Source: Microbulbifer sp. A4B17 (GTDB taxonomy: Bacteria; Pseudomonadota; Gammaproteobacteria; Pseudomonadales; Cellvibrionaceae). Taken from it: a stretch of DNA of 64,000 nt. The notes below the pieces were generated by a model. That model was not told the DNA's origin, did not search any database, and saw only the letters and a program-made list of their open reading frames with translations. The stretch's first letter is position 1. Each line of letters opens with the position of its first letter. Below, piece after piece: positions 4,858 to 20,841 of this stretch. Made by a program: the position numbers and the translations under genes. The stretch covers positions 4,320,001-4,384,000 of the forward strand of contig NZ_CP029064.1 in assembly GCF_003076275.1 (NCBI RefSeq). Direction: 5' to 3'.

Positions 4858-5434
4858 ATCCCTATTCTTTAACAAGTAGAACATCTTATTTATTACCAGA
4901 TAATACCAGAAAACTACATTCATCATCTTTATAAATATAAGCTAATTCTAATTTTCTTACTAAATGGCGTAAAATTTCATATTTTGCTTCTCGCCACTTT
5001 TTACATAATAAGAAATGAAAGTAACAATTAGACAAAGAAACAAGAAAATTTAAAACTCTTAATAAATATTACAGGAAAGAAATCTTCAGACTACAAGCCT
5101 ACTGAAGATTAAAAGTAAGCATATTCAGAATCCTGCACTAGCTATAAAAAAGAATAGATCCTATATAAGTGTACAATCCGATCACTATAGAAAATTAGCT
5201 GATACTAAAGCAGCCAATATAAACCTACAACACTAAATCAGGATAAGTGCTAACAGCATAATTATATAAAACAGGAAATTTATTAACGTGGTCAGGAGTT
5301 AGCTTCACAGAGTAGGGCTTAAATATTTTAGCCAGATCAAAGATCTGGCATCGTCGACATAATTGGATTTAACCTTTCACATATACAGCTAATGATTTAA
5401 AAATGTCACATCTCTCACTGTTTTCTACTGTATT
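4858..5434. other. AT-rich intergenic region between speA and the TonB receptor
   Basis: No plausible gene was seen in this stretch. It contains two hairpins downstream of speA: a perfect 8-bp stem at 5331-5349 (listed separately) and a 9-bp AT-rich stem at 5081-5110 (aatcttcag / ctgaagatt, 12-nt loop) followed on the minus strand by a T-rich run. The receptor promoter must lie in the left part, but no convincing -35/-10 pair or Fur box was recognised. Confidence 0.5.
5331..5349 (-). terminator. hairpin downstream of speA, possible terminator
   Basis: Perfect inverted repeat gccagatc-aaa-gatctggc lies 86 bases after the speA stop codon. On the minus strand it is followed by TAAAATATTT, which is AU-rich but not a clean T tract. 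It is probably the end of the DUF2218-speA transcript, either as a terminator or as an RNA-protecting stem. Confidence 0.45.
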
Positions 5435-7369
5435 CTAATCTCTTTCATAATAGGTATAACCTTGCATACTTGCATTGAAGGTCTTAATTATTTGCTGACG
5501 TTCACGAGCGCTAATACGCCCACTGCGAACAGCCGCTTCAACCTTATTACGAAAACGCGTCTTTACTTCATGCGGCTGATACTCAACATAGCTTAAAACA
5601 TCCTCAATAGTATCCCCATGAACCTCTTTCACAAACTCAAAGCTGGCACCTGAATTCAGTCTCACACTGACAACATTCGTATCACCAAATAAATTATGCA
5701 GATCACCTAGAGTTTCCTGATAAGCGCCCACTAAGAAAACACCGAGGTAGTACTCCTCGCCTTGCTTTATTGAATGCAGAGGTAAGGTTCTTTCGATTTG
5801 CTGATTAACTACGAATCGCTCAATTTTCCCATCACAATCACAAGTAATGTCGGCTAAGATAGCACGCCGATTTGGAGTCTCATTTAGTCGATGAATAGGC
5901 ATAACAGGAAATAACTGATCAATAGCCCAGCTATCAGGTAAGGACTGAAATAAACTAAAATTACCATAATAGATATCAGCTAATGAGTCTGCCAACCCTT
6001 CCAGATCTTCAGGTATTCGCTCCATTTCTGAAAGAGTCTCTTTTATACGATGCAAAACATTGTAATAAATTGTCTCTGACACAGAACGAACACGAAGATC
6101 TATTTGACCACGCTTAAATAATTCACGAACTTCATCCCGATAAAACTGCGCATCATTGAAGCACTCTTGTAATCTTTGAGGCTTCAAGTAAGTCAGGATT
6201 TCACGCATATTTTGAAGCAATTGATGCTCATCTTCCTCAGCTTCCTTAAGCTCTTCTGAGTCGAAACTTACGAAATCAAGGATATTAAAGAGCAAAATTG
6301 ATGTGTAGGCTACAGTAGCACGACCAGACTCCGTAACAATTACCGGATGAGGTAAGTTTTTACTATCTAATGTACTCTTAATTGTATCAATAATATCTTC
6401 GCAGTATTCCTCAAGTGAGTAATTTCGGCTTTGCCCAGTACTTGACTGTCTGCCGGTGTAGTCAACTGCTAAACCACCACCTAAATCAATATACTTTAAT
6501 GCCACACCCTCTTTACATAAATCGGAATAATAGCGACAGGCTTCTAGTACACCACCGCGGATATCGCGGATATTAGGAATCTGAGAGCCCAAATGGCAAT
6601 GCAATAACTCAAGACAGTTGAGCATTTGATGCTCTTTTAAGTAATCAACCACATGTATAAGCTGGCTTGAAGAGAGCCCAAATACACTTCTCTCACCACT
6701 GGTAGCACTCCAATGACCACTTACTTGAGTCGTCATTTTAACGCGCACCCCAATATGAGGAAAAATATCTAACGCTTGACTTCGCTCTACAATAATTGGC
6801 AGTTCGGTTAAGGTTTCAATAACAAAGATACACTTCAATCCAAGCTTTGTTGCCTCTAATCCCAGCTCTATAAATTCTTGGTCCTTATAGCCATTACAAA
6901 TAATTAGGCTATCAAGTTCTTCGATGGTAGATAAAGCTGCAATCATTTCGGCTTTACTACCAACTTCAAATCCATGCTGATAACGAGAACCAAATTGAGC
7001 CACCTCATCAACAATTTGGGCCTGCTGGTTTACTTTAATTGGATAAACACCTTGGTATTTATTCTGATAACCCAGTTTTTCGATTATCTGACGAAAAGTT
7101 TCGTTAAGTGAGCTAATACTTTTATCAAGAATATTCTCGATACGCAGTAAAACAGGCATGTGTAAATCGCGGTCCTGCATACCCTCGATAATTTGCATCA
7201 AGGGAACAGCGTTTGCCTCGTCATGATTAGGGTTTTTTACGACAACATTACCCTGTGAATCTATATCGAAATAACCATTACCCCACTGATTAACACCATA
7301 AACATTCCCTGCCTCGGCTATACTCCACTGGGCATTAATTTCACTTTCGATTTTATCTTTCTCTAACAT
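5435..7369 (-). CDS. speA: biosynthetic arginine decarboxylase
   Basis: The 644-residue length and motifs match the PLP-dependent biosynthetic arginine decarboxylase that converts arginine to agmatine. The PLP lysine lies in GVYPIKVNQQ (K112). HCHLGSQIPN, the glycine-rich DLGGGLAVDYTG and the C-terminal arginine decarboxylase region are also visible. It begins 10 bases after the DUF2218 gene, so the two form an operon headed by a Fur-box-like site at 7788-7806. Placement beside the asb genes and Fur control are unusual for speA. Together with aguA and aguB at 18-20 kb it completes a route to putrescine, which suggests it supplies the amine of the siderophore rather than serving only housekeeping polyamine synthesis. 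This second copy idea is inference, as the rest of the genome is not visible. Confidence 0.93.
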   Translation of the reverse strand: MLEKDKIESEINAQWSIAEAGNVYGVNQWGNGYFDIDSQGNVVVKNPNHDEANAVPLMQIIEGMQDRDLHMPVLLRIENILDKSISSLNETFRQIIEKLGYQNKYQGVYPIKVNQQAQIVDEVAQFGSRYQHGFEVGSKAEMIAALSTIEELDSLIICNGYKDQEFIELGLEATKLGLKCIFVIETLTELPIIVERSQALDIFPHIGVRVKMTTQVSGHWSATSGERSVFGLSSSQLIHVVDYLKEHQMLNCLELLHCHLGSQIPNIRDIRGGVLEACRYYSDLCKEGVALKYIDLGGGLAVDYTGRQSSTGQSRNYSLEEYCEDIIDTIKSTLDSKNLPHPVIVTESGRATVAYTSILLFNILDFVSFDSEELKEAEEDEHQLLQNMREILTYLKPQRLQECFNDAQFYRDEVRELFKRGQIDLRVRSVSETIYYNVLHRIKETLSEMERIPEDLEGLADSLADIYYGNFSLFQSLPDSWAIDQLFPVMPIHRLNETPNRRAILADITCDCDGKIERFVVNQQIERTLPLHSIKQGEEYYLGVFLVGAYQETLGDLHNLFGDTNVVSVRLNSGASFEFVKEVHGDTIEDVLSYVEYQPHEVKTRFRNKVEAAVRSGRISARERQQIIKTFNASMQGYTYYERD

Positions 7370-7379
7370 CTTTTTACCA

Positions 7380-7709
7380 TTAAGAATTCATTAGATTCCA
7401 CTGAGGTGAACATTCCACACCTTTCGCAAATCGTAAGAAGTGGGAATCAATGCAATCTATGATCTCTTTTAACTCCGCACCAGAGTTAGCACCACAACGC
7501 AAATCCAACTGATCTCCACTTCCATTCATATCACAGAAACCCATATCAAACTCAATATGGCCGCGCTCACTGCTCCACCGGGCATTAACTTTGTGAGCGA
7601 AGTGCTTACACAAACGCCGAATCATCTTCTGGCTGTCAATGTGAATTACCGTTGAAAAAGCTAAAAATTGGCTATCATGCTCAGCCTCAACTTTATTAAT
7701 AGTGCTCAT
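7380..7709 (-). CDS. DUF2218 domain protein
   Basis: A 109-residue protein with the DUF2218 pattern: a RRLCKHFAHKV helix, then a GHIEFDMGFCDM strand pair, then DQLDLRCGANSGAELKEIIDCIDSHFLRFA, described here only by its ends DQLDLRC and SHFLRFA. DUF2218 proteins have no firmly assigned biochemical role but occur in iron-acquisition loci and other metabolic settings. It is the first gene of a two-gene operon with speA and lies just downstream of a near-consensus Fur box, so its expression should rise under iron limitation. There is no signal peptide, which suggests a cytoplasmic protein. The family assignment is fairly firm, the function unknown. Confidence 0.72.
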   Translation of the reverse strand: MSTINKVEAEHDSQFLAFSTVIHIDSQKMIRRLCKHFAHKVNARWSSERGHIEFDMGFCDMNGSGDQLDLRCGANSGAELKEIIDCIDSHFLRFAKGVECSPQWNLMNS

Positions 7710-8040
7710 ATCCCCACTTCTAAATTAATTCACTTTATGCTGAGCCAACTTTCAAACGAAAAGATGTATTCAGCAATTAACACCCCTGGTAATGATAATC
7801 ATTATCAAAGATGTTAATTGCTTTCATTGCCGAAAAAAACCACTTTTACAATTGTTACGACAGCATAATAGCTAATAAAAACTGTCAATAATTAAAATAT
7901 TTTGAGTTCAAAGGCAGCTTCAAGCTTGTTAATGTTAAACAAACCTGATTAGAGTTTTAGAGAAGAGAAAATACTTAAGTAATATCTAAGCCGATACTTT
8001 ATGCACCCCAATTTACCGTCTTAAATAAGCTAGTCTTTTA
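7710..8040. other. intergenic region with Fur box, between DUF2218 gene and response regulator
   Basis: This 331-base stretch holds the promoter region of the DUF2218-speA operon, with the Fur box at 7788-7806. The remainder, towards the stop codon of the response regulator gene, shows no recognisable gene or clear hairpin. Confidence 0.6.
7788..7806 (-). promoter_or_regulatory. Fur box upstream of the DUF2218-speA operon
   Basis: The sequence ggtaatgataatcattatc matches 18 of 19 positions of the Fur consensus GATAATGATAATCATTATC. It lies about 80 bases upstream of the DUF2218 start codon. Ferric uptake regulator bound to ferrous iron would repress the operon. This is the best match of the four Fur-like sites in the locus. 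Confidence 0.88.
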
Positions 8041-8724
8041 TTACGAAAATCTATAGCCTTTGCCATGAATCGTAGCAAAGCGGTCAGCCGATATACCAAC
8101 TTCAATAAACTTTTTCCTGATACGACTGAGGTGCATCTCAAGGCTTCGATCGTAACGAGAAAATTGTCTGTTAAGTACCGCACGATATAAAAATTGCTTA
8201 CTAACTACTTTGAACCGGTTCTCAGCGAGTATCCAAAGTAATCGAAACTGAATAGGTGTAAACGCTAAATTATCTCCCCTATAAAAAACCTGCTGCCTTG
8301 ATTTTAATAACCTTAAGTGATCGATATCAATCTCACCCTTAATGTTACTTTCCCCCTTGTTAGTTCGACGCAGTATTGCGTTTATACGCAGCACTATCTC
8401 AGTGGAATCAATCGGCTTGGATATGAAATCATCAGCCCCCTGCCGAAAGCTCTCTATCCTTTTTGCCGTTGTATTAATTGAAGAGAGAACAATTACAGGC
8501 GTTTGCCCCCAGCTACGTATAGCCTGTAAAGGTGATAAATCATCATTGGTGGGCAAAAACGCATTGACTAAAATAAGATCAAAATAGTCTGCGGGCATTA
8601 CCATCAACCCTTCACTAACATCTTGACATTGAGTGACATTAAATCCTTGCTTTTGCAAAGTACCGCTCAATTGTTTGCTTATTTTAGTATCACTTTCCAA
8701 TATTAAAATATGCGCAGTTGCCAC
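8041..8724 (-). CDS. OmpR-family response regulator with atypical receiver
   Basis: A 227-residue protein with an N-terminal receiver domain (about 1-120) and a C-terminal winged-helix domain (about 128-227; FTPIQFRLLWILAE, SRYDRSLEMHLSRIRKKF, TIHGKGYRF). The position of the phosphoacceptor aspartate is asparagine (ILVNAFLP, N54), and the upstream acidic patch is E-S-D (residues 10-12). The switch serine (VIVLSS) and the lysine of FISKP are kept. Such receivers usually cannot be phosphorylated in the normal way and act without a kinase or respond to other signals. No histidine kinase gene is in the window. It sits between the two Fur-boxed units of the petrobactin locus, so it could be a local regulator, but nothing visible proves this. 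Confidence 0.85.
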   Translation of the reverse strand: MATAHILILESDTKISKQLSGTLQKQGFNVTQCQDVSEGLMVMPADYFDLILVNAFLPTNDDLSPLQAIRSWGQTPVIVLSSINTTAKRIESFRQGADDFISKPIDSTEIVLRINAILRRTNKGESNIKGEIDIDHLRLLKSRQQVFYRGDNLAFTPIQFRLLWILAENRFKVVSKQFLYRAVLNRQFSRYDRSLEMHLSRIRKKFIEVGISADRFATIHGKGYRFS

Positions 8725-9202
8725 AACAGCCTCTTATTCATAACCAAATTAAAACTCGAATTTTTTGGATCCAAAATTATCCATAGCGTAAAAATACTCC
8801 CACCCGCCGACGACTTTAATATGAGGATACCCGCCTGAAACCAACGTATAAATTTTACTTTTGGCGACTAACAGGAGTTTTAATAGTACATTTTCTAAGC
8901 TATCTTCAAAGGAAGAACACGTGACTTACATGGACATTTAGCACTGCAAAACATCAATACTGCTGTGCACTTCCTGTACAACCACTGCACGGGACACTCT
9001 ATTAGCATACTTAGTGCCCGACACAATATTGCATTGGCCCTAAAACAAAATCTGTTCACATTTAGAGCATCAAAACTTCACGATGCAGCTTTATGTATCA
9101 ACCTGAATTTATCGATATTAATGATAATCACTATCATTTGCAATAAGTGGAATATATAATACTGCTCCAGAACCTATTTTTCTCATGATTTGAGACACTT
9201 TA
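8725..9202. other. divergent promoter region between response regulator and MATE exporter
   Basis: No gene of merit was seen here. It serves as the 5' region for both flanking genes and carries a Fur-like box at 9117-9135 near the MATE gene. A TATAAT hexamer at 9155-9160 may be the -10 element of that gene, with no good -35 element. Confidence 0.55.
9117..9135 (+). promoter_or_regulatory. Fur box upstream of the MATE exporter gene
   Basis: The sequence attaatgataatcactatc matches 16 of 19 positions of the Fur consensus. It ends about 68 bases before the start codon and just upstream of a TATAAT at 9155-9160, a position compatible with repression. Confidence 0.78.
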
Positions 9203-10585
9203 ATGTCAGCCCAAAATCCAGCGCTTTCCGGTCGTATCGTCAAGACTTTCTTTTACTATGTGCTACCTTCAATAGTCGGCTTAGTTGCAATAACAAGCGC
9301 CAACCTGATTGATGGCTTTTTTGTCGGCAACACCATAGGTACAGATGCTCTCGCTGCAATCACTCTAATGATCCCGTACTTCACCTTGTTGATAGCTATT
9401 GCCATCATGCTGGCAATAGGCGGGGCTGTGAGCGTAGGTAAAGCCATTGGTGAGAAAGATCCGAAAACAGCAAACGCGATTTTCAGCCAATCCCTTATTG
9501 CCGCTGTGGTTATTAACACTCTGCTAGCGCTGGTCAGCTTAGCCTTCAACGATCTACTTTTTGAAATACTCAATATTTCAGCCCAGGTTGCTGTATTAGC
9601 GAGGGAATATTTCGACGTCATTCGCTGGGTGTTCATTTTACAGTTAACCACAATGGTGCTGTATTATTTTGTACGTGCTGACGGCCATCCGATATTAGCC
9701 ACATGCGCATTAGTAATTGGCGCTGTTCTCAATATTATTCTCGATGCCTGGTTTATCGTTTACTTGGAACTCGGATTAGCTGGGGCAGCTTATGCCACTG
9801 CAATAGCGCAAGTTATACAATTTTTAGTATTGAGTCGTTATTTTTTTAGCAAAAAAAGAACTCTTAAGTTCGAATTACAACAAAGAAATTGGAAATTACT
9901 TTTTAACTCAGCTTATAACGGTATATCAGAGTTTATAAACGAGATATCTGTTGGTATTATTTTTTTCATTCTAAACACTTTAATGATTATGCGGCTAGGC
10001 GTAGATGGTGTAGCAGCATTTACTCTGGTCAATTACTTCATTTTCTTAAGTGTCATGCTCAGTTATGGTTTAGCAGATGCACTTCATATCGTTGTCAGTC
10101 AAAATTTTGGCGCTCAGCATTTAAATAGAGTGAAATCTTTTTTGTCAATTGCAATATTAAGCACCATCTGCTTGGGTATCATTATCGTTGCGCTGCTTGT
10201 TTTTTGGCCAGAAACTGTTCTGAGTTGGTTTACCAATGAACAAGATCAGGAAATATCCCAAGTCAGCATGCAATTGCTGCCATTGTTGCTTCCACTATTT
10301 TTAATTAACGGCACTAACATCGTCTTAACCTGTTACCTAACAGCAATACACAAACCAAAACCTTCAGCTTTAATTGCTATTAACCGCAGCTTATTATTCC
10401 CCGCCGTATTTTTGATTGCCTTTTATTATATGTTGCCCAGCTGGCACTTATTGCCAGCAGCAATAAGTGATTTGTCATTTATTGTTGCACTGCCATTAGC
10501 AGAATGGTGCACCTTTTTATTGGCCGCCTATTTTTGCTACCAATACAGGCCTACGAAGCTGAAAGTGAATCAAACTTCAGTCTAA
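9203..10585 (+). CDS. MATE family efflux transporter, probable siderophore exporter
   Basis: A 460-residue integral membrane protein with about twelve hydrophobic segments and the MATE pattern (SANLIDGFFVGNTIGTDALAA near residue 33, split here as SANLIDGFFVG and GTDALAAIT; GGAVSVGKAIGEKD near 75). MATE proteins export organic molecules using a sodium or proton gradient. Its own Fur-like box and its position directly upstream of asbA on the same strand suggest that it exports newly made siderophore. In Bacillus anthracis petrobactin is exported by an MFS protein instead, so use of a MATE carrier would be a different solution. Export function is inference from context; family membership is firm. 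Confidence 0.85.
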   Translation: MSAQNPALSGRIVKTFFYYVLPSIVGLVAITSANLIDGFFVGNTIGTDALAAITLMIPYFTLLIAIAIMLAIGGAVSVGKAIGEKDPKTANAIFSQSLIAAVVINTLLALVSLAFNDLLFEILNISAQVAVLAREYFDVIRWVFILQLTTMVLYYFVRADGHPILATCALVIGAVLNIILDAWFIVYLELGLAGAAYATAIAQVIQFLVLSRYFFSKKRTLKFELQQRNWKLLFNSAYNGISEFINEISVGIIFFILNTLMIMRLGVDGVAAFTLVNYFIFLSVMLSYGLADALHIVVSQNFGAQHLNRVKSFLSIAILSTICLGIIIVALLVFWPETVLSWFTNEQDQEISQVSMQLLPLLLPLFLINGTNIVLTCYLTAIHKPKPSALIAINRSLLFPAVFLIAFYYMLPSWHLLPAAISDLSFIVALPLAEWCTFLLAAYFCYQYRPTKLKVNQTSV

Positions 10586-10646
10586 GTAACGCCAAGTGAG
10601 ATACAGCTCTAAAACAATAGTAACAATTGTAAACTTGCTTGATGGT

Positions 10647-10665
10647 GAGAATGTGTATCATTATC
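10647..10665 (+). promoter_or_regulatory. Fur box upstream of asbA
   Basis: The sequence gagaatgtgtatcattatc matches 15 of 19 positions of the Fur consensus, with a perfect right half (atcattatc). It lies 45 bases before the asbA start codon. It would govern the whole asbA-F run, whose genes overlap or are closely spaced. Confidence 0.72.
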
Positions 10666-10710
10666 ATCTAGGCAAGTTCTTTTACTTAGTATCTCCAGGA
10701 GAATATCGTC

Positions 10711-12552
10711 ATGCCATTCACCGCAAAAGAGCTGGCGGAAAAGGCTTCTTTTCAAGCATTTGCTAATGCATATATAAGAGAAGTTGACCCCGGTGTTTGG
10801 CATACAAGCTCTGATTGGCAATTACAAACTGGTGTGGCTCTTGAAGAAGAAAATGGTTATGCGTTAGAACTTTATTTGAACGGAACTGGAGTTACACTTG
10901 CTTTAGAAGCTTCTTATCGTTCAATTGTCGGCCGACATGTATTTACTAAAAGCTACCGAAAATTAGCAAATCAATGGAATTGGCAATCCATAGATTTTAC
11001 TTCTGCGATTATGATGTTAATAGATAACATTTATGCAAAAGATAATAACCAAAACAATAAACCAAATACTCCAGCCAACAAAATAGAACTATTAAATCGT
11101 ACTTTAGAAAGTCTTCAGATCATGCAGGATTATCTTACTAAGCGACTAGATGATCCTACGCTTAATAGCTCCGATTATATTTGTTCTGAGCAGTCTCTGT
11201 TATTTGGACATTGGCTTCATCCAACACCCAAGTCACGCCAAGGCATTCACTCTTGGCAACATGAAAAGTATACGCCCGAATTGAAATCTAAATTTCAATT
11301 ACACTTTTTTGCCGTGTCAAAAGAGCTTCTGGAACAAGATTCTTTACTCGACGAGAGCGTTGAGGAAATTATCAATAATATGTTAGGGGCTGATATTGAT
11401 ATCGATATCGATAAACAGCTAATACCTGTACACCCTCTACAAGCACAGTGGCTGTTACACCAGGACTATGTTCAACATTTACAACGTGACGGACTAATTA
11501 TCGACTTAGGTCTTATGGGTAAGATGTTTACACCCACTTCTTCAGTGCGCACTCTGTACTGCAGTGAGCTTAATTATATGATTAAGCTCTCTATTCCCGT
11601 AAAAATAACTAATTCGCTACGAAAAAATATGGCTCATGAGTTAGATCCGGGTTTAAATGTTGGAAAATTGTTCTCATTAAGCAACTTCAAGCAAAAATTT
11701 CCACAGTTTGTTTTAATTGAAGATCCTGCATTTATTACTGTTAAATTACCTAATATGCAGGAAACAGGCTTTGAAACTATTATACGGAAAAATCCATTCA
11801 GTAAAGATACAAACAGCTTAGAACTACCCACAGTTTCAATCGCAGCATTAGTACAAGACCCTATTTTATCCGGCACTCAGTCTAAATTAGCCCAGCAAGT
11901 TTTAAGTTTGGCTTCCAAGCAGGGCATTAGTGTAGAGGAAGCAGCATTAAAATGGTTTAATTGTTATTGGCAATGTGCAATTGAACCAACAATTAGACTT
12001 TACGATAGTCAAGGTATTGGTTTAGAGGCTCACCAACAAAATTCTCTATTAACTATTTATGATGACTGTCCAATTAGATACTATTATCGAGACAATCAAG
12101 GTTTCTACTTGTCAGAAAAAATGCAGGATGAGTTGCTCGAAGCTGTACCTGAGCTAAGGAATAATCCTGACTTATTTTATCCTGACAATATGATTGCAGA
12201 TCGGTTTGGATACTATCTTTTTGTCAATCAGTTATTCTCAATTATTGGCCGTATGGGACAAGATGGCCTTATTGATGAGAATAAACTATTACAACTAAGT
12301 TACAGCAAGCTTAATTTTCTAAATTCTAAGGTGCTGACAGGCGTCGGCATAAATTTTATAAACAGATTATTTAATAATTCTAGCATTCCCTGCAAAGGAA
12401 ACCTTCTGACTCGCGTTGAAGATGTTGATGAGCTGGAAGCAGAAAAAGAATTAGCTGTTTATACTAATATACGAAATCCTTTTTTTGACCTGTATCAAGA
12501 AAGCTTGCCTATCCATAAGCAAGTTAACGAGGTGACTCTTGCTCACAGTTAA
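10711..12552 (+). CDS. asbA: petrobactin biosynthesis NIS synthetase AsbA
   Basis: A 613-residue IucA/IucC-family synthetase, close to the usual length of AsbA. Visible family motifs are GHWLHPTPKSRQG (ATP/citrate binding region, near residue 170), HPLQAQW (near 247) and GLEAHQQNSLL (near 435), with C-terminal FhuF-like segment. AsbA adenylates citrate and condenses it with a polyamine, spermidine in the known petrobactin pathway. It is the first of a run asbA-asbB-asbC-asbDE-asbF, each overlapping or adjacent to the next, under a Fur-like box. The start follows tatctccaggagaatatcgtc, split as CAGGAG then ATG nine bases later. Identity rests on the complete gene order, especially asbF. Confidence 0.9.
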   Translation: MPFTAKELAEKASFQAFANAYIREVDPGVWHTSSDWQLQTGVALEEENGYALELYLNGTGVTLALEASYRSIVGRHVFTKSYRKLANQWNWQSIDFTSAIMMLIDNIYAKDNNQNNKPNTPANKIELLNRTLESLQIMQDYLTKRLDDPTLNSSDYICSEQSLLFGHWLHPTPKSRQGIHSWQHEKYTPELKSKFQLHFFAVSKELLEQDSLLDESVEEIINNMLGADIDIDIDKQLIPVHPLQAQWLLHQDYVQHLQRDGLIIDLGLMGKMFTPTSSVRTLYCSELNYMIKLSIPVKITNSLRKNMAHELDPGLNVGKLFSLSNFKQKFPQFVLIEDPAFITVKLPNMQETGFETIIRKNPFSKDTNSLELPTVSIAALVQDPILSGTQSKLAQQVLSLASKQGISVEEAALKWFNCYWQCAIEPTIRLYDSQGIGLEAHQQNSLLTIYDDCPIRYYYRDNQGFYLSEKMQDELLEAVPELRNNPDLFYPDNMIADRFGYYLFVNQLFSIIGRMGQDGLIDENKLLQLSYSKLNFLNSKVLTGVGINFINRLFNNSSIPCKGNLLTRVEDVDELEAEKELAVYTNIRNPFFDLYQESLPIHKQVNEVTLAHS

Positions 12553-14458
12553 CCCACAGCAGTATTTATCTCAACAAGGCCCAGAAATCTCTCTTAATGA
12601 AAATTCTGACAGCCATTTAGCTGAAGAGAAAAGAGTGATTCGCCAGCTCCTGGAAGCATTATTGTTCGAGCATCTTTGTGATTACTCTTATCACGATGGT
12701 TTTTTCTATTTTACATTAGGAAGATCTTTTTATCGGGCTTCAGGAAGGATTTCTGGTTTTAGTCGAATTAGAATCAATGCAGAAGAAATGTTTTTTTCTC
12801 AAAGATATGGAAAGCATGCAGATACAAAACTTCAGGCACAATGGATAAAAGATATATCTCAAGGTATTGATTGGCAACCAATAACACTAAATGCCCTTGT
12901 TGAGGACTTGCCTGCTTCAGTAGCAGTAAAGAAAAAGCTGACAATTGAGCTTGAACAAACTGTAAAGCTTTGCCAGTGGAACAATAAGCATTTAAACCGT
13001 CATATAAGCCGTCGTGAATTAACATATACCCAGTTAGAGTCTGCAATTGATGAAGGGCACCCTTATCATCCATGCTTCAAGGCACGAACTGGGTTTAGCG
13101 AGCTTGATCATAAACTTTATGGTCCAGAGTTTGGCAATAATTTTCAACTACATTGGTTGGCGATTAGACGGTGCTATTTGAAGCGTCGATTTAACTCTGT
13201 AACTGAAAAAATATTTTGGGAAGCTGAGCTTGGCGAACAATGTTACCAGCAGTTAAATACAAAAATTAAAAATCTAACTTCCGATAGTGCTGCATTTTCA
13301 TTGATGCCCATCCATCCATGGCAGTGGAAGTTCTTAAAAGATAAACTTGAACCCGCTATTGCTGACGGACAAGTATTTTACCTTGGAGAGGCTGGCGATC
13401 AATATCAAGCCAGCATTTCAATTCGTACATTATTAAATATTAGCCATCCTGAAAAAGCTAATATAAAACTACCTCTGAATATAATTAATACTTCTTCACT
13501 ACGCACTATAGAAAGCCACACCATTTGTACTGCGCCTGCTATATCAAACTGGTTAATACAAATTCTAGAGTCGGATAACTACCTGAAGCAAAATATGATT
13601 TTGCTGGCGGAGTACGCCGGAATAAGGCCTACAAACGATGGCACTGAACACCAAGCATGGATTGAGAATCTTGATGGTCAATTGGGTGTAATTTTTCGAC
13701 AGAGCCTGCACTCATACTGTGATGAGAAAAATGTAATACCTTTTGTAGCCCTAAGTATAATAGAACAAGATGGCAGCCCTTTTATCGAGCCCTGGATTGC
13801 CGAATATGGTTGTTATAGTTGGCTGGAGAATCTGCTCGAAAAGGTGGTTATTCCCATATGGCACTTACTAGTTCATCATGGTATTGCAATTGAGGCGCAC
13901 GGGCAAAATATCTTATTGCAACATAAAGATGGTTGGCCTGAAAAAGTCATAGTGCGCGATTTTCATGAAAGTATGGAGTACGTTCACAGTTACTTAGCAC
14001 AACCGGAATTAGCACCTACTTTTACTGACTTCGAGGAAGAATATAGTTTTGGCGCGCCAAACCAATATTATTGGATGGAGAGTGTCGAAGCTTTGCGCGA
14101 ACTTTTAGTAGATACATTATTGGTTTTTAATTTATCTGACCTGGCTGTATTACTTGAAGATTACTACCAGTTTCCAGAAAGTGAATTCTGGAAATCAGTT
14201 TATCAGAGATTTAGGAAATATCAGCAATCAAACTTAACTGATCAAAAGCGTATAGCCCAAATCGATTTATTCCAGCCGGAAATTAAAACCGAATCACTAT
14301 TGGATAAGAAATTTCGCGGGAATCGTGAAACAGAATTTCATCATCAAATAAGAAATCCGTTAGCAGACGCTGCTCTGCATGATGCCCAAAAGGAAACCTC
14401 AAAGACATCAATATCAGTGCCAGCAGTACCAGGAAAATCCTATGCTTACAATAAATGA
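12539..14458 (+). CDS. asbB: petrobactin biosynthesis NIS synthetase AsbB
   Basis: Second IucA/IucC-family synthetase, 639 residues. Motifs seen are DEGHPYHPCFKARTGFS (near residue 173), MPIHPWQWKF (near 258) and IEAHGQNILL (near 454). In petrobactin synthesis AsbB adds the second amine or dihydroxybenzoyl-polyamine arm to the citrate core. The best start is a TTG at 12539, overlapping asbA by 14 bases and preceded by GAGGTG; no ATG or GTG lies at a suitable place downstream. Translational coupling to asbA is likely. The product of the two synthetases with the local amine supply is discussed in the findings. Confidence 0.9.
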   Translation: MLTVNPQQYLSQQGPEISLNENSDSHLAEEKRVIRQLLEALLFEHLCDYSYHDGFFYFTLGRSFYRASGRISGFSRIRINAEEMFFSQRYGKHADTKLQAQWIKDISQGIDWQPITLNALVEDLPASVAVKKKLTIELEQTVKLCQWNNKHLNRHISRRELTYTQLESAIDEGHPYHPCFKARTGFSELDHKLYGPEFGNNFQLHWLAIRRCYLKRRFNSVTEKIFWEAELGEQCYQQLNTKIKNLTSDSAAFSLMPIHPWQWKFLKDKLEPAIADGQVFYLGEAGDQYQASISIRTLLNISHPEKANIKLPLNIINTSSLRTIESHTICTAPAISNWLIQILESDNYLKQNMILLAEYAGIRPTNDGTEHQAWIENLDGQLGVIFRQSLHSYCDEKNVIPFVALSIIEQDGSPFIEPWIAEYGCYSWLENLLEKVVIPIWHLLVHHGIAIEAHGQNILLQHKDGWPEKVIVRDFHESMEYVHSYLAQPELAPTFTDFEEEYSFGAPNQYYWMESVEALRELLVDTLLVFNLSDLAVLLEDYYQFPESEFWKSVYQRFRKYQQSNLTDQKRIAQIDLFQPEIKTESLLDKKFRGNRETEFHHQIRNPLADAALHDAQKETSKTSISVPAVPGKSYAYNK

Positions 14459-15749
14459 TAAGTTTTATAGTAAAGAAGACTTTAACGAGCAAAAGCAGTC
14501 CTATGTCTCAATAAATACTATTAACCAGAGTAACGCTGTTGCGGTATGTGTTGAAGATAATTTTATTTGGCTGACTCTATGTTATTACTTAAAGTCAAAG
14601 AAAATATCTGCCATGCCTATCCACCCCAGTGTTCCGAAGGATACTGCAAAGCGTATGGCAGAAAAGGCTGGCTGCGAATTGCTGATTTATGGTGACTTAA
14701 CAGGATTAATCGAGCTATCGACAACTAATTTGAATAAATCTGAAGCAGGTATTATTCAAATGAGCTCTGGTACCACAGGTGAGCCAAAATGCATATTACG
14801 AAGCTGGGCGGATATTGATATTGAGATAAAGAGTTATTGCCAAGCTTTCAGCGAGCCAGATAGCATGACTCCAGTTATCGCCTGTCCCGTTACCCATTCA
14901 TATGGATTAATTTGTGGCGTAATGGTTGCTCTGAATCGGGGTCAGTCGCCACTGATAATTAGTAATATCAATCCTAAATACCTTATCAAGAAGCTGCAGA
15001 GTTGTCAGCGCCCGCTTTTGTATTCTTCTCCGGTAATGTTGCAGGGATTATTACGTTTATGGCCGGCCAATAGCAAACTATTTGCTGCCATGACTTCAGG
15101 TTCCACTATGCCACAACAGGTATTTGAGCAAATTCAGGCACGTGTAGAAAACTTATATCAACAGTATGGATGCTCTGAAGCGGGCTGTATTAGTATAGGA
15201 CAAGATTTATCTGCTGCTAACGATCAGGGAAAGCCATTACCTCATGTCGAAATTACCTGTGGTAATCTCGACAATAAACAGCAAGAAATAGTTGCTTATG
15301 TAAAAACTGCATCAGGAACTAAAACTGTTAAAACACAGGATGTCGGCTATTTGAGTGAAAATGGTCGACTGCATTTTCTTGCACGAATGGATGACACTAT
15401 CATCGTATCAGGCCTAAATGTATATCCTGCAGAAGTAGAAGATATCATACTTGAACACCCACAAGTTAATGATGTAGTGGTATTTAAGATAGATGATCAA
15501 TTTGCAGGCCAACGAGTTTGCCTACAGTATGTCGCTTCCCCAGCAATAAACCCCGCTGAACTACGTCAATGGTGCAGTCAACACTTAGCACTGTTTCAAG
15601 TACCGCAAATATTACAGCCGGTCGATGAGATAATGCGAATGGCTAACAGTAAAGTGAACCGTAAGCTGATTGCGCTGAACTATCAACAGAACATACTGAC
15701 CAGAACAAATAAAAGTAGTGAAGGAAAACAAGCTGAAAGAGCCAACTAG
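14442..15749 (+). CDS. asbC: 3,4-dihydroxybenzoate-AMP ligase AsbC
   Basis: A 435-residue adenylate-forming enzyme. It shows the phosphate-binding motif QMSSGTTGEPK (near residue 106), a YQQYGCSEAGC motif (near 240) and the C-terminal domain hinge around MDDTIIVSGLNVYPAEVED, split as MDDTIIVSGLN and YPAEVED. AsbC activates 3,4-dihydroxybenzoate and loads it onto the carrier AsbD. The ATG at 14442 has AGGAA about seven bases upstream and overlaps asbB by 17 bases; an in-frame ATG at 14379 would add 21 residues rich in Gln and is less likely. Substrate assignment rests on the neighbouring asbF dehydratase. Confidence 0.88.
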   Translation: MLTINDKFYSKEDFNEQKQSYVSINTINQSNAVAVCVEDNFIWLTLCYYLKSKKISAMPIHPSVPKDTAKRMAEKAGCELLIYGDLTGLIELSTTNLNKSEAGIIQMSSGTTGEPKCILRSWADIDIEIKSYCQAFSEPDSMTPVIACPVTHSYGLICGVMVALNRGQSPLIISNINPKYLIKKLQSCQRPLLYSSPVMLQGLLRLWPANSKLFAAMTSGSTMPQQVFEQIQARVENLYQQYGCSEAGCISIGQDLSAANDQGKPLPHVEITCGNLDNKQQEIVAYVKTASGTKTVKTQDVGYLSENGRLHFLARMDDTIIVSGLNVYPAEVEDIILEHPQVNDVVVFKIDDQFAGQRVCLQYVASPAINPAELRQWCSQHLALFQVPQILQPVDEIMRMANSKVNRKLIALNYQQNILTRTNKSSEGKQAERAN

Positions 15750-15792
15750 TAAGTAGGGGCTATCTATTGAGTAAACAAATAAAATATTAATT

Positions 15793-17169
15793 ATGCAAAA
15801 GACTGAAATAGTAGATTCGATTCAGAGCATACTTACTAATGAGTTGAATCTAACACATATAGAAGATATTCAGCTTCACTCCAAGCTAAATGAAGATTTA
15901 TATCTTGACTCCGTACTGATCCTGCAAGTACTTATTAGCTTGGAATTAAAGCTGGGAATTGATATACCCGATGAAGCCTTAAACTTGAAGGATTTTGATA
16001 CAGTCGATAGCTTTAGTGAGTTTATATTAGGCCGGGTTAACTATAAGGGTGAGAATGGCGCTTCTCCCAAGTATACAGATCCTCAAGAGAAATCAGGAGT
16101 CGAAATAGCCCCAGCAGAACAAACTGGAGAGCAGACAGAAGAATTTGAGGATATTAAAGTACATTGTTTTGTGAGTTGTCTATGCGAGTGTATCAAAGCA
16201 AATGATCACGTTGACCATAGACCATTTTATTTTGGTGTATGGGACGCCGATGTTGTAGTTGATAATGATTATTGTATCAACTATCACGCTGAGAATTTGA
16301 ACCATGACTTCTTTCGACACTGGTTCGAGAAAATTTATGGTGTCGAGGTAAAGTCCTGGTACAACCAAGGCTTATCCAAAAGCGATAATATTAATACATT
16401 ACTAACATTACTAGACAATAAATCTGCCAGTCAGAACATAATGGTAATGCTAGATATGTATAGGTTGCCAGAACGCGAAAATAAGTTTAACCAGAATCCA
16501 TTCCCTCACTACGTAATGCTGGAAAATAGTCAAGATCCAGAAATGTTATTTATGTGGGATCCTGATTTTCGTTGGGAAGGAAAGCAAAATAAAAAACAAG
16601 TATTACACGCAATTGAGTCGGACGCTGTTGCTGGCGGTTATATCTTTGATAGCAGCCAAATTAAACTAAGCTCCAACCAGTCAATCCATGACTATTTTAT
16701 TGCCTGTTTGAACTTAAAAAATAATCCGATGACGGATGCCGTGCGACAAATTGTCACGGCACATTTAACGCCTGAAAGTCAGCTATGCCCCTCTAATTTG
16801 AGCCGTGCTCTCACTCAACTTCCCGTATTGGCTATTCGAAAATATGCCTACGAACATGGCTTGGCATATTTTATGTTGCAGCTGAATTTGGATTTTGATG
16901 AATTTGAAACATGGTGCGACATTATTGAAGAGTTAGTTTCCACCTATAAGCAGATTCAATTTCGCTCTATGAAAATTGCGAATTACGCTACTGAAGGAAA
17001 CTATCCATCCGAATCATCGACAGATATTAAAACAGAAATCATGCAGCTACTGGATCAACAAGATCAGCGAGAATTTAAAATCAAACGTCAGCTACATACA
17101 TTATTTCAACAATGGCAAAACCATGTAGCTATTACTAATAAAGAACGTTCCAATGAGGTGTGCATATGA
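15793..17169 (+). CDS. asbDE: fused aryl carrier protein AsbD and petrobactin synthase AsbE
   Basis: A single 458-residue frame joins two proteins that are separate in Bacillus (about 91 and 327 residues). Residues 1 to about 82 form an acyl-carrier domain, with the phosphopantetheine serine in YLDSVLIL (S40). A Gly/Glu/Gln-rich linker spans about 84-115. The rest resembles AsbE, which transfers dihydroxybenzoate from the carrier to spermidine or to the citrate conjugate. The frame is open throughout, with no frameshift signature, so the fusion looks real. It starts 43 bases after asbC and its TGA overlaps the asbF ATG (ATGA). Fusion should tether carrier and transferase one to one. Confidence 0.86.
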   Translation: MQKTEIVDSIQSILTNELNLTHIEDIQLHSKLNEDLYLDSVLILQVLISLELKLGIDIPDEALNLKDFDTVDSFSEFILGRVNYKGENGASPKYTDPQEKSGVEIAPAEQTGEQTEEFEDIKVHCFVSCLCECIKANDHVDHRPFYFGVWDADVVVDNDYCINYHAENLNHDFFRHWFEKIYGVEVKSWYNQGLSKSDNINTLLTLLDNKSASQNIMVMLDMYRLPERENKFNQNPFPHYVMLENSQDPEMLFMWDPDFRWEGKQNKKQVLHAIESDAVAGGYIFDSSQIKLSSNQSIHDYFIACLNLKNNPMTDAVRQIVTAHLTPESQLCPSNLSRALTQLPVLAIRKYAYEHGLAYFMLQLNLDFDEFETWCDIIEELVSTYKQIQFRSMKIANYATEGNYPSESSTDIKTEIMQLLDQQDQREFKIKRQLHTLFQQWQNHVAITNKERSNEVCI

Positions 17170-18014
17170 TTTTATCTATCTGTACAATCTCTTTTCGCCA
17201 TCAACTGGTTTCAATTGATCATTTGGCAAAGTGGGCGAAGCATAATCATTTTCAGGGTATTGAATTGTGGGGAACTCACGCAAAAAATCTCGCCTCTCAA
17301 CCAGAATATAATAAAGATTGGTTGGCGGACTACGGCCTAAAAATCACGATGTTAAGTGATTATTTAGCGCTATATGCCACTGAAGCAGAGTTACATAAAC
17401 AAGTAGAACATTTATGTTACTTAGCAAAACATTGGGGCGCTAAGAAAATTAGGACTTTTGCCGGCTCCGAAGCAAGCGCAAACACATCTGAGCATGGCTT
17501 TGCACGATTAACAAAGACGTTGCGCAAGGTCTGTCATTGGATGTCCCGACATGACCTCAATTTGATTATTGAAACACATCCCAATACATATGCGGATTCC
17601 GTCCCAGCAACAAAGCATTTATTACAGAGCGTTGCTTGTGACAATCTTCAAATCAATTTTGACGTACTCCATGTCTGGGAATCAAAAACTGAAGTGATCC
17701 CAGCTTTTGAGGCTTTAAAAGATAATATTAATCATATCCACTTAAAGAATGTAAGTTCTGCAGAATTCCTGAATGTGTTCTCGCCTGCTAATGTATATTC
17801 TGCTTCTGGCTCGCGGGAAGGTATTGTCCCGCTGTTTGATGGCGCTGTTAATTATCAGGAATTCGTAAGTCATATTAGTCAACATCCAGACAAGAGAGTC
17901 CGCAACATTGAAGCTTCACTGGAATGGTTTGGTGATGACTGTAAAGAAACACTAGCTAGAGATAGATACCTAATTCAACAACTTCAGCAGTGTCGCGAAC
18001 CACTAGCCATTTAG
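17166..18014 (+). CDS. asbF: 3-dehydroshikimate dehydratase AsbF
   Basis: A 282-residue TIM-barrel enzyme that converts 3-dehydroshikimate to 3,4-dihydroxybenzoate. The match to AsbF is strong: SICTISFRHQL at the N-terminus, FQGIELWGTHAKNL, IIETHPNTYAD, INFDVLHVWES, HLKNVSSAEFLNVF and ASLEWFG at the end. Metal ligands of the family (Glu, Asp, His, Glu) fall in these motifs. The ATG at 17166 overlaps the stop of asbDE by four bases and has GAGGTG upstream; a GTG at 17160 is an alternative. This gene is the most diagnostic evidence for a petrobactin-type catecholate siderophore. Confidence 0.93.
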   Translation: MILSICTISFRHQLVSIDHLAKWAKHNHFQGIELWGTHAKNLASQPEYNKDWLADYGLKITMLSDYLALYATEAELHKQVEHLCYLAKHWGAKKIRTFAGSEASANTSEHGFARLTKTLRKVCHWMSRHDLNLIIETHPNTYADSVPATKHLLQSVACDNLQINFDVLHVWESKTEVIPAFEALKDNINHIHLKNVSSAEFLNVFSPANVYSASGSREGIVPLFDGAVNYQEFVSHISQHPDKRVRNIEASLEWFGDDCKETLARDRYLIQQLQQCREPLAI

Positions 18015-18018
18015 TAAA

Positions 18019-18056
18019 TTGGGTCTGCTAATTTCTAGGAAATCTGGCAGACCCAA
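18019..18056. terminator. bidirectional hairpin between asbF and aguB
   Basis: A 10-bp perfect outer stem (ttgggtctgc / gcagacccaa) encloses an inner 5-bp stem (atttc / gaaat). It lies in the 53 bases between the convergent asbF and aguB genes. It lacks a long T tract in either direction but its position suits a shared terminator. Confidence 0.6.
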
Positions 18057-18067
18057 GCTATCAACTC

Positions 18068-18955
18068 TTAATCACGGTAAATTTTCGTTAAGTCTTGGTA
18101 ATGATCGACACGTCTATCTCGCAAGTATGGCCAAATACGGCGTACTTGTTCACTTTTCTCCATATCTATATTCGCAATTAGTATCTCACCATCACTTTCA
18201 CTTGCACAGACAAGTAGCTCGCCTTGTGGACCGCAGATAAAGCTATTACCCCAGAAATCAATGCCGGCAGAACTTCCACTGGAATCACTTTCATGGCCCA
18301 CACGATTACAACTAATAACTGGTACGCCATTCGCTACCGCGTGGGACCTTTGTACAATTTTCCAGGCTTCAAGTTGTCGTTGCTGCTCAGCCGCATCATC
18401 GCGCGGGTCCCATCCAATTGCGGTTGGGTAAATCAGTAATTCTGCTCCAGCCATTGCCATCAGTCGGGCGGCTTCAGGAAACCATTGATCCCAACAAACC
18501 AATATGCCCAACTTGCCAATACTCGTCTCTATAACTTCAAAGCCCAAATCACCAGGCGTGAAATAAAATTTTTCGTAAAATCCCGGATCGTCCGGAATAT
18601 GCATTTTTCGATACTTTCCGGCAATAGAGCCATCTTTATCCAATACCACTGCAGTATTGTGATAAATACCTGCAGCACGCTTTTCAAATAGAGAAGTCAC
18701 TATGACCACGCCGAGTTCTTTTGCAAGCTGTCCAAAATAATCCGTACTGGGTCCAGGGATCGTCTCAGCTAAATCGAATAAACTTACATCTTCTGACTGA
18801 CAAAAATACAGGCTACGATGCAACTCCTGCAGCACTACTAAATCAGCGCCTTCACTCGCTGCGGCACGTATTCCCTGAGTTGACCTATCAATATTTTGTT
18901 GGCAATCAACAGTGTTATTTTGCTGAACAAGTGCCACTTTAACTATGTTACTCAT
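18068..18955 (-). CDS. aguB: N-carbamoylputrescine amidase
   Basis: A 295-residue nitrilase-superfamily enzyme with the full catalytic triad: Glu in VLQELH (E44), Lys in KYRKMHIP (K117) and Cys in ILVCWDQWFPEAAR (C154). The sequence around the nucleophile and the HIPDDPGFYEKFYF segment are typical of AguB, which hydrolyses N-carbamoylputrescine to putrescine, carbon dioxide and ammonia. It is the second gene of an aguA-aguB transcription unit, 58 bases after aguA, and so falls under the Fur-like palindrome at 20110-20128. Together with speA it supplies putrescine to the siderophore locus. Confidence 0.93.
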   Translation of the reverse strand: MSNIVKVALVQQNNTVDCQQNIDRSTQGIRAAASEGADLVVLQELHRSLYFCQSEDVSLFDLAETIPGPSTDYFGQLAKELGVVIVTSLFEKRAAGIYHNTAVVLDKDGSIAGKYRKMHIPDDPGFYEKFYFTPGDLGFEVIETSIGKLGILVCWDQWFPEAARLMAMAGAELLIYPTAIGWDPRDDAAEQQRQLEAWKIVQRSHAVANGVPVISCNRVGHESDSSGSSAGIDFWGNSFICGPQGELLVCASESDGEILIANIDMEKSEQVRRIWPYLRDRRVDHYQDLTKIYRD

Positions 18956-19013
18956 TAATAAATTCGCTAGATTATTTAATTTTAGATTAGATGCAATAAA
19001 TTATTTTTAACGC

Positions 19014-20048
19014 CTAATTAGCTAAGAAGTTTTTCGGCAGCTGCATAGTTAAACAATGCAAACTACCGAACTGTTCGATAATGGGCCGGCAATTAACTGC
19101 AACTATCTGATGCTCCGGAAATGCCATCTGGAGAGTTTGTAACGCCTCAGTATCTTCTTCAACATCATATATAGGAGCTAGTACCGCATCATTGATAATT
19201 AGAAAATTGGCATAAGTGGCAGGTAAACGCTCACCACTTGCATTAGCTTGTCCGCTAGGCCATGGTAATTCCAGCAAATTAAATGGTTTCCCATCAAGCG
19301 AGCGCATTTGTACTAAACTCTGCTTCATTTTCTCAAGCTCATCAAAAAAACGATAACCACTTTCATTACAGCCCTGATAGATAATGGTTTGGCCAGGTGC
19401 AAACCGTGCAAGAGTGTCGATATGGCTATCCGTATCATCGCCCTCTAATACGCCATGATCCAGCCATAGAATATTCTTTGCACCTAACTCAGTTTTTAGC
19501 AGTCCCTCGATATCCGCTCTTGTCATACGGTGGTTACGATTTTTATTTAGCAAACAGCGCTCAGTCGTTAAAAGGTTACCCTTTTCGTCAATATCTATTG
19601 CTCCACCTTCAAGAACGACGTCAATTTTTCGCCAATTACAGATACCCAGTTGTTTAAACATTTCCTGGTTAATCTGATTGTCTAAATCAGCCGGGTATTT
19701 GCTTCCCCATCCATTAAACGTGAAATCGAGAGCAACAACTTGTCCTTGGCTGTTCACTACTGAAATTGGGCCATGATCTCTCGCCCAACTATCATTTGTG
19801 GCAACAATAACAAACTGAACATTCTGAATTATTACATTAGCCCCATGTAATAACTGGCTAATATGTATTTTTAAAACCTCATCATGACAAACGACTACCA
19901 GTTTTTGCCGAGCAGTTATAGCTTCGCAAATAGAAACATAAACCGCTTCTACTTCGTTTAGTATCGGTTTCCAATCAGTATCCGCATGGGGCCAAGTGAG
20001 CATTATTGCATCTTGCTTGGCCCATTCAGGTGGCAATCTATTTGACAT
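19014..20048 (-). CDS. aguA: agmatine deiminase
   Basis: A 344-residue member of the peptidylarginine/agmatine deiminase family that turns agmatine into N-carbamoylputrescine. The N-terminal PPEWAKQDAIMLTWPHADTDW region (split: PPEWAKQDA, LTWPHADTDW), the NDSWARDHGPISV motif, LEGGAIDID, LDHGVLEGDDTDSHID and the C-terminal nucleophile region SLHCLTMQ (C332) are all visible. The usual GGGNIHC motif is degenerate before the cysteine (EQFGSLHC), a small departure from the family norm. It heads an operon with aguB and has a perfect 9-1-9 Fur-like palindrome about 60 bases upstream. The start codon has only a weak ribosome site. Confidence 0.93.
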   Translation of the reverse strand: MSNRLPPEWAKQDAIMLTWPHADTDWKPILNEVEAVYVSICEAITARQKLVVVCHDEVLKIHISQLLHGANVIIQNVQFVIVATNDSWARDHGPISVVNSQGQVVALDFTFNGWGSKYPADLDNQINQEMFKQLGICNWRKIDVVLEGGAIDIDEKGNLLTTERCLLNKNRNHRMTRADIEGLLKTELGAKNILWLDHGVLEGDDTDSHIDTLARFAPGQTIIYQGCNESGYRFFDELEKMKQSLVQMRSLDGKPFNLLELPWPSGQANASGERLPATYANFLIINDAVLAPIYDVEEDTEALQTLQMAFPEHQIVAVNCRPIIEQFGSLHCLTMQLPKNFLAN

Positions 20049-20109
20049 AAGTTTTAATTACTTTATCTGATAGTTATTTTAAATTTACAAGGGTATTGAA
20101 CCAGTACCA

Positions 20110-20128
20110 AATGATAATAATTATCATT
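20110..20128 (-). promoter_or_regulatory. Fur box upstream of aguA-aguB
   Basis: The sequence aatgataat-a-attatcatt is a perfect 9-1-9 inverted repeat and the classical Fur-box architecture. It lies 62 bases upstream of the aguA start codon. Its presence in front of a polyamine gene is the strongest sign that amine supply is tied to iron status here. Confidence 0.88.
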
Positions 20129-20196
20129 ACAATGATATAGAAAAATTCATTTCGCGCAAGTTTAGGCTCTGATTTAAATAGACTTTCGCACAGTTT

Positions 20197-20523: not shown

Positions 20524-20841
20524 ATGGCCTGGTTCTACTTAATACTCGCCGGACTATGCGAAATTGGTTGGGTGCTGGGACTGAAAATTTCACAGGGCAG
20601 TAACACCCGCCTTCTGGGTGTGGTTATGGCTGTGGTATTTATTGGGGTCAGTGGATTTCTTCTGTGGCTGGCGCAGCGGGAGATACCTATTGGTACTTCC
20701 TATGCGGTCTGGACTGGAATTGGTGCCGCCGGAGCCTTTGCGGTAGGGGTGCTGTTCTTTGGAGACTCCACCAGCCTTGGACGCTATCTGGGAGTTTTGC
20801 TCATTATCTTAGGTGTTGTCACGTTAAAACTCTCTCATTAA
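20524..20841 (+). CDS. sugE: SugE/Gdx-type small multidrug resistance exporter
   Basis: A 105-residue, four-helix membrane protein of the SMR family. The essential glutamate of helix 1 is present (LAGLCEIGWVLGLK, E13), and SYAVWTGIGAAGAF in helix 3 is typical of the SugE/Gdx branch rather than EmrE. This branch exports guanidinium ions and some quaternary ammonium compounds as an antiparallel dimer using protons. AAGGAATATC provides the ribosome site before ATG. It is a single-gene unit ending at a hairpin shared with rsgA. Confidence 0.9.
   Translation: MAWFYLILAGLCEIGWVLGLKISQGSNTRLLGVVMAVVFIGVSGFLLWLAQREIPIGTSYAVWTGIGAAGAFAVGVLFFGDSTSLGRYLGVLLIILGVVTLKLSH

Follow-up and report, generated by a model that had tools for sequence, protein, structure and literature searches.

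A petrobactin-type siderophore locus of Microbulbifer sp. A4B17 with a predicted iron-responsive putrescine supply of its own

Polyamine genes have been described beside siderophore genes, or in connection with iron, in several bacteria; the following accounts rest on the available parts of the cited papers. In Epibacterium ulvae DSM 24752 a petrobactin-like cluster includes genes for an arginine decarboxylase, a carboxynorspermidine dehydrogenase, a carboxynorspermidine decarboxylase and an agmatinase, and the authors proposed that these extra genes make the polyamine backbone (PMC7989816). The speA-speH-speE-speB genes of Clostridioides difficile are upregulated when iron is low and also when fur is mutated, and a potential Fur box is marked for speA (PMC6311696). 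Clusters of the asbABCDEF type are found in Alteromonas macleodii, Marinobacter hydrocarbonoclasticus and Bacillus anthracis, and that of A. macleodii is upregulated under iron limitation (PMC8776838). Shewanella oneidensis forms putrescine mainly by the SpeA-AguA-AguB route and makes putrescine-based siderophores (PMC8891985). Single decarboxylases linked to siderophores are also known, such as DesA (mentioned in PMC8503589) and FigC (PMC7857480). Here we present a locus of Microbulbifer sp. A4B17 in which the putrescine genes speA2, aguA and aguB lie on both sides of a petrobactin-type asb gene cluster. The window is the whole stretch of DNA that was analysed (64,000 nucleotides; contig NZ_CP029064.1, positions 4,320,001 to 4,384,000), and coordinates refer to it unless stated otherwise.

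It appears very probable from the sequence that this is a petrobactin-type siderophore locus with its own iron-responsive putrescine supply, the siderophore and polyamine genes being under coordinated Fur control. Such control is supported because a separate polyamine locus of the same genome has no Fur-like site, because speA is linked to asb in 9 of 16 genomes, because Fur-like boxes are found before linked but not before unlinked speA genes, and because the linkage needs two changes on the tree of SpeA proteins. The same four lines of evidence favour the proposal of the initial annotation that putrescine would be made on demand for siderophore synthesis at low iron.

Fur-box-like sites were scored against the 19-bp consensus. 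Four sites, given without strand, were located in the region. The site at 7788..7806 (18/19) is 78 bp 5' of the start codon of the DUF2218-speA2 unit, and that at 9117..9135 (16/19) is 67 bp 5' of the start codon of a MATE transporter gene. The site at 10647..10665, with 15/19 on the plus strand and 16/19 on the minus strand, lies 45 bp 5' of the asbA start codon. The fourth, at 20110..20128, is a perfect 9-1-9 palindrome located 61 bp 5' of aguA-aguB; it has 13/19 in that register, and the overlapping site at 20113-20131 has 16/19. The best overlapping match is 16-18/19 at each of the four sites, at distances of 45-78 bp from the start codons. The initial annotation had described one such palindrome upstream of each of these four units, and both the positions and the scores were reproduced. 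When only the 7-1-7 core is considered, the best matches out of 14 are 14 (7788), 13 (9117), 11 (10647) and 14 (20110).

With three or fewer mismatches, no match was found in 100 dinucleotide shuffles of the window, and a backwards control pattern gave none in the whole-genome scan. The genome itself (5,035,829 bases) gave 11 rows, corresponding to nine distinct places, and four of these nine are inside the 12.3-kb region. The equal density in random DNA that would have spoken against the boxes was not observed, and an origin as chance AT-rich palindromes was rejected on these three counts. The density elsewhere predicts 0.012 sites in 12,341 bp, and the resulting Poisson P of about 9e-10 overstates the case because the region was picked for its boxes and the value is uncorrected for that choice. 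Among the five places outside the region, one precedes a TonB receptor gene, three lie within open reading frames, and the fifth precedes a short open reading frame with no evident iron role. The box before this receptor gene (L120:5674-9091) has 17/19 and is located 37 bp 5' of it, and a PepSY_TM gene follows the receptor gene. The species may take up its siderophore by this pair, since a PepSY_TM gene is also found near asb in genome G596. A Fur protein is encoded in the genome. A scan for promoters was dropped as evidence: the region has 20 promoter-like matches against a mean of 41 in its shuffles, which is fewer than chance, and the overlap of the 10647 site with a promoter-like match at 10639-10667 therefore means little.

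The asb-linked arginine decarboxylase gene speA2 (5435..7369, minus strand) codes for 644 amino acids, and its product passes the curated TIGR01273 cut-off with 736.6 bits against 624.1. Its identity is 67-72% to the asb-adjacent SpeA of six other genomes and 55% to the other SpeA of its own genome. The gene aguA (19014..20048, minus strand) encodes a short-form agmatine deiminase of 344 amino acids (PF04371, E 8e-116) and is the only PF04371 place in the genome. The solved relative 3hvm, an agmatine deiminase, is matched with E 3e-80, and the GSLHC stretch is kept in the alignment with 2cmu. The gene aguB (18068..18955, minus strand) encodes an N-carbamoylputrescine amidohydrolase of 295 amino acids (TIGR03381, E 9e-93; solved relatives 6mg6 and 5h8i, the latter with E 3e-76), in which the stretch CWDQWFPEAAR is aligned. 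Both stretches presumably hold the catalytic cysteines. The pair is predicted to work as AguA and AguB, though both proteins fall under the corresponding NCBIfam cut-offs.

The petrobactin gene set asbA, asbB, asbC, asbD, asbE and asbF is complete and on the plus strand, with asbD and asbE fused. It comprises an asbA-like nonribosomal-peptide-synthetase-independent siderophore (NIS) synthetase of the IucA/IucC type (10711..12552; PF04183, PF06276), an asbB-like NIS synthetase (12539..14458) whose best solved relative is 3to3 (AsbB, E 5e-100), and an adenylating enzyme (14379..15749; NF006167, 527.9 bits, cut-off 513), for which the name asbC rests on operon position. The fusion gene (15793..17169) combines an acyl carrier domain at residues 1-78, matched by the AsbD model NF005798 under its cut-off, with a DUF6005 domain at residues 120-452 (PF19468, E 7e-137). 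The asbF-like 3-dehydroshikimate dehydratase (17160..18014) has 3dx5 (AsbF, E 3e-68) as its only solved relative. In the order, DUF6005 open frames of at least 425 amino acids occur in 13 of 16 cases, consistent with an asbD-asbE fusion, and shorter frames of 352-375 amino acids are found in G723, G574 and G614. The MATE family transporter upstream of asbA (9203..10585, plus strand; PF01554, TIGR00797 above cut-off) is a candidate siderophore exporter. A relative of it is present at all 19 other asb loci read, two of which are from one genome; it is on the opposite strand in one locus.

The genome contains two speA genes, one aguA gene and two arginase-family genes, one of which is an agmatinase gene. 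The second polyamine locus, at about 381.8-387.3 kb of the genome, carries speA1, CASDH, CANSDC and speB together and is unlinked to asb; its CASDH is under the NCBIfam cut-off. In the stretches read there, no Fur-like site of at least 14/19 was found, and the best one before its genes has 11/19. On this basis the growth polyamines can come from the speA1 locus, and speA2-aguA-aguB would be an additional route. No convincing spermidine synthase was found in the genome by a PF01564 search, SpeD not being searched for. The single weak PF01564 match (E 1e-8, in a 271-amino-acid frame) was not taken as SpeE.

Among 390 genomes of the order, 16, this one included, contain the AsbE domain DUF6005. 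A search of 369 genomes across the class gave only the present genome above the cut-off. Eight further genomes of the genus were searched; none has DUF6005 and each has a single SpeA, and for this reason the asb locus is an accessory feature. In the 15 other asb genomes, 20 kb around DUF6005 were read, and asb together with MATE relatives was seen in all 15. SpeA2 was searched in the 16 asb genomes and in 14 genomes of the same family without a DUF6005 match, which gave 35 places. In the 9 asb genomes of the order with linkage, the present one included, speA is located no more than 20 kb from asbE.

The linked loci are of several types. Genomes G515, G530 and G420 have the order receptor, binding protein, permease, ATPase, DUF2218, SpeA2, CASDH, CANSDC. 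The same order is seen in G374 and G414 with a different SpeA and with SpeB added, and here the asb-linked SpeA is the only one found in the genome. The receptor-transporter run of these two loci (L112, L113) is headed by a 17/19 Fur-like box, and the space of about 180-190 bp in front of speA could hold a promoter of its own. In G713 and G623, a SpeA2-CASDH-PPTase-MATE run points toward asb and an HGSNAT_cat-AguA-AguB-SIP run starts in the opposite direction. In G596, SpeA2, CASDH, a Tsx-like gene, PPTase and MATE come before asb, while CANSDC, CASDH, AguA, AguB and SIP come after it; the CANSDC of this genome is above the NCBIfam cut-off and the CASDH below. CASDH and/or CANSDC matches without a nearby speA occur in G482 and G467, the match in G467 being partial and at the edge of the stretch.

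The 35 speA places, nine linked to asb and 26 unlinked, served as a test set in which the best Fur-like site of each place was compared. A first rule considered the operon head with a gap of at most 250 bp and gave shuffle p values of 0.05 or less in four of the nine linked and in none of the 26 unlinked places. This rule walked past the receptor gene or stopped short of it in several linked loci, and a wrong open reading frame was called in G530. Under a second rule, which admitted any gene start in the co-directional run with a gap of at most 450 bp, the best sites were 13-18/19 for linked and 9-12/19 for unlinked places. A box of at least 14/19 was found in eight of nine linked against none of 26 unlinked runs, and the Fisher P of 4e-7 is not to be taken at face value because five of the boxes precede receptor genes and some of the loci are near relatives. 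The same eight linked places, and no unlinked place, had shuffle p values of 0.05 or less. In G623, the ninth linked locus, a site of 14/19 lies 223 bp upstream. In four loci, those of the window, G596, G713 and G623, the box is followed directly by speA or by the DUF2218-speA pair. For aguA, among 19 places, the linked runs have 16/19 (present genome) and 14/19 at the run head (G713, G623), and the 15 unlinked runs have 10-13/19 as scored within 1.5-kb flanks.

When linkage to asb is mapped on a tree of all 35 SpeA proteins, two changes of this label are required, both forced by well-supported branches. Seven asb-linked SpeA proteins are in one clade (97/94), and its sister consists of the unlinked SpeA of G713 and G593. 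The asb-linked SpeA of G374 and G414 form a second, separate group. Asb-linked SpeA proteins distinct from the housekeeping SpeA were thus found as a clade of their own.

The following mechanism can be proposed. In iron-replete cells, Fur bound at the four boxes would keep DUF2218-speA2, the MATE gene, asbA-F and aguA-aguB silent; under iron shortage, all four units would be released together. SpeA2 would then convert arginine to agmatine, AguA would convert agmatine to N-carbamoylputrescine, and AguB would give putrescine. The unlinked CASDH and CANSDC would convert putrescine to the spermidine backbone, or would not be needed should the siderophore be a putrescine analogue. AsbA-F would join the amine backbone to 3,4-dihydroxybenzoate and citrate, and export is probably the task of the MATE protein. 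For growth, the cell would meanwhile obtain its polyamines through the separate speA1-CASDH-CANSDC-speB locus, in which no Fur-like site was found. The boxes, the families of the genes, the second locus and the linkage in relatives are seen in the sequences; from these we infer Fur binding, repression, flux, export and product, and the asb chemistry is assigned by analogy with the known petrobactin pathway.

Several observations weigh against this reading. The second rule for the speA comparison was chosen after the first had given 4/9 against 0/26. Five of the nine linked loci have their box in front of a TonB receptor gene that is located several genes 5' of speA; a Fur box is expected at such a place anyway, and control of speA there depends on read-through. 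Several of the nine loci are from near relatives (G530/G420, G374/G414, G713/G623). The scored part of the aguA run of G596 reaches at most 11/19, and a 15/19 site in that genome is before asbA, upstream of aguA. In the window, the asbA box is the weakest of the four by its core, and the bit scores of AguA (233.7 against 381.8) and AguB (310.6 against 410.25) are under the NCBIfam equivalog cut-offs. The linkage is also not general: five of the 16 asb loci (G422, G687, G574, G614, G723) lack polyamine genes throughout the 20 kb that were read, and the named loci L023, L024 and L025 have none within 10 kb of asb. Among the species of these named loci, the SpeA found in Alteromonas portus and Methylophaga thiooxydans is on another contig than asb, and Marinobacterium lutimaris gave no SpeA match at the threshold used. 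Finally, no CASDH or CANSDC match was found within the window.

This last absence leads to a different view of the product. Petrobactin contains spermidine, so the unlinked CASDH and CANSDC would still be needed to process putrescine from this locus, unless the siderophore carries putrescine itself. A siderophore with putrescine or another diamine in place of spermidine would account for a locus that holds only the steps from arginine to putrescine. In fact, G596, G713, G623, G515, G530, G420, G374 and G414 each have a CASDH and a CANSDC match near asb, and the petrobactin pathway is reported, in the available part of PMC8776838, to accept norspermidine for spermidine in vitro. However, CASDH and CANSDC are encoded elsewhere in this genome and the asb set is complete, and we regard a diamine siderophore as unlikely, though deserving of some weight. 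It is more doubtful still that speA2 and aguAB merely adjoin the siderophore genes and serve general polyamine supply, nitrogen use or stress, with incidental Fur control. Iron and Fur control of spe genes in C. difficile, for which protective roles of polyamines are discussed (PMC6311696, available part), would fit that explanation. Against it are the other polyamine route in the genome, the linkage in nine of 16 genomes with its two changes on the SpeA tree, and the arrangement in G596, where polyamine genes flank asb on both sides.

The boxes at 7788 and 20110 might also serve other genes or have arisen by chance in AT-rich DNA, but this seems very improbable. The 20110 box does have a divergent gene on each side; aguA is 61 bp away from it, and an SMR-type transporter gene, at 20524, is 395 bp away. 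The 7788 box is between two genes of the same strand and has no divergent gene to control, and there are nine such places in 5.04 Mb of which four are in the region. From these positions, a control of neighbours in place of the polyamine genes is unlikely. Besides the preferred reading, in which Fur governs putrescine supply and siderophore synthesis together, a wider one can be considered, which we put forward tentatively and somewhat doubt. The bacteria of this order may more than once have brought the pathway from arginine to spermidine into petrobactin loci under Fur, so that a dedicated, iron-switched set of enzymes makes the siderophore polyamine and is insulated from growth polyamines. 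From agmatine onward, the present species would then use the deiminase-amidohydrolase route for the siderophore and agmatinase for growth, and in G374 and G414 basal polyamine synthesis itself would be under iron control.

The first gene of the speA2 unit (7380..7709, minus strand) encodes a DUF2218 protein of 109 amino acids (PF09981, E 7e-21). In G515, G530, G420, G374 and G414, the DUF2218 gene has speA on one side and the ATPase gene of a siderophore-type ABC transporter on the other. Four asb loci with no speA close by (L043, L046, L053, L024) likewise have DUF2218 after such an ATPase gene, and this points to a function in the uptake or release of siderophores and not in polyamine synthesis. 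An OmpR-type response regulator gene is found at 8041..8724 (minus strand). In several asb-bearing relatives a kinase gene is beside the response regulator gene, with an HK_sensor domain in G515, and no match to this kinase was found in the window. Nor were the receptor, binding protein, permease, ATPase and kinase genes found between DUF2218 and the response regulator. Compared with the G515 type, the arrangement in the window seems reduced: DUF2218-SpeA2 is directly behind the box, and these genes may have been lost by deletion.

A TonB-dependent receptor gene is present at 2773-4926, between tcuAB-like genes and speA2. It was rejected as the petrobactin receptor: it is little like the receptors of the relatives, and no box of at least 14/19 is before it. 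A petrobactin-type ABC permease elsewhere in the genome was likewise rejected. Its sole candidate is 38% identical to the G515 permease, against 64-70% for four full-length matches at other asb loci. A further pyridoxal-phosphate-dependent decarboxylase gene of the ornithine/diaminopimelate type (PF02784, PF00278; L015:2-3591) lies between an AMP-binding enzyme gene and another gene, and is perhaps part of another biosynthetic cluster.

If the proposed control is correct, a polyamine-based siderophore is paid for by a second, iron-switched pathway that spares the polyamine pool for growth. Loss of speA2 and aguA would then affect siderophore output and not growth. A polyamine gene linked to asb and preceded by a Fur-like box could serve as a genomic marker for other modules of precursor supply.

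It remains to compare this locus with the systems described above, for which the same available parts of the papers were used. The E. ulvae cluster is similar in that a siderophore cluster has its own polyamine genes, but it uses an agmatinase, while the window has AguA and AguB in a separate unit (PMC7989816). The loci of G374 and G414, with their agmatinase, resemble the E. ulvae cluster more closely than the window does. Fur sites and a second, housekeeping copy are described here, and the available part of PMC7989816 makes no mention of them for E. ulvae. The C. difficile operon shares an arginine decarboxylase gene with a link to iron and Fur; it belongs to a different phylum, uses a different route to spermidine (speH, speE) and is not said, in the part available, to adjoin siderophore synthesis genes (PMC6311696). 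The remark of the initial annotation that polyamine genes are rarely iron-regulated overlooks this operon and needs qualification to that extent. The asb genes are the same as those of A. macleodii, M. hydrocarbonoclasticus and B. anthracis, apart from the fusion of asbD and asbE; the legend of the cluster figure in PMC8776838, to which this comparison is limited, names no polyamine genes. In S. oneidensis the same three enzymes supply putrescine in a siderophore producer (PMC8891985). However, they form its primary putrescine pathway, whereas speA2 of the window is a second copy beside siderophore genes. DesA and FigC are likewise decarboxylases recruited to make or finish the amine part of a siderophore, but they are single enzymes of other kinds and not a whole putrescine pathway. 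No description of asb-linked speA with aguA and aguB under Fur was found in the open-licence literature, a scope outside which most subscription journals and bioRxiv fall. The general kind of system is already known, as polyamine genes in a petrobactin-like cluster (PMC7989816) and as iron-controlled spe genes (PMC6311696). Two features are new as far as the literature was searched: a housekeeping agmatinase route is accompanied by a deiminase-amidohydrolase route that has a Fur-boxed unit to itself, and linkage of speA to asb recurs within the order.

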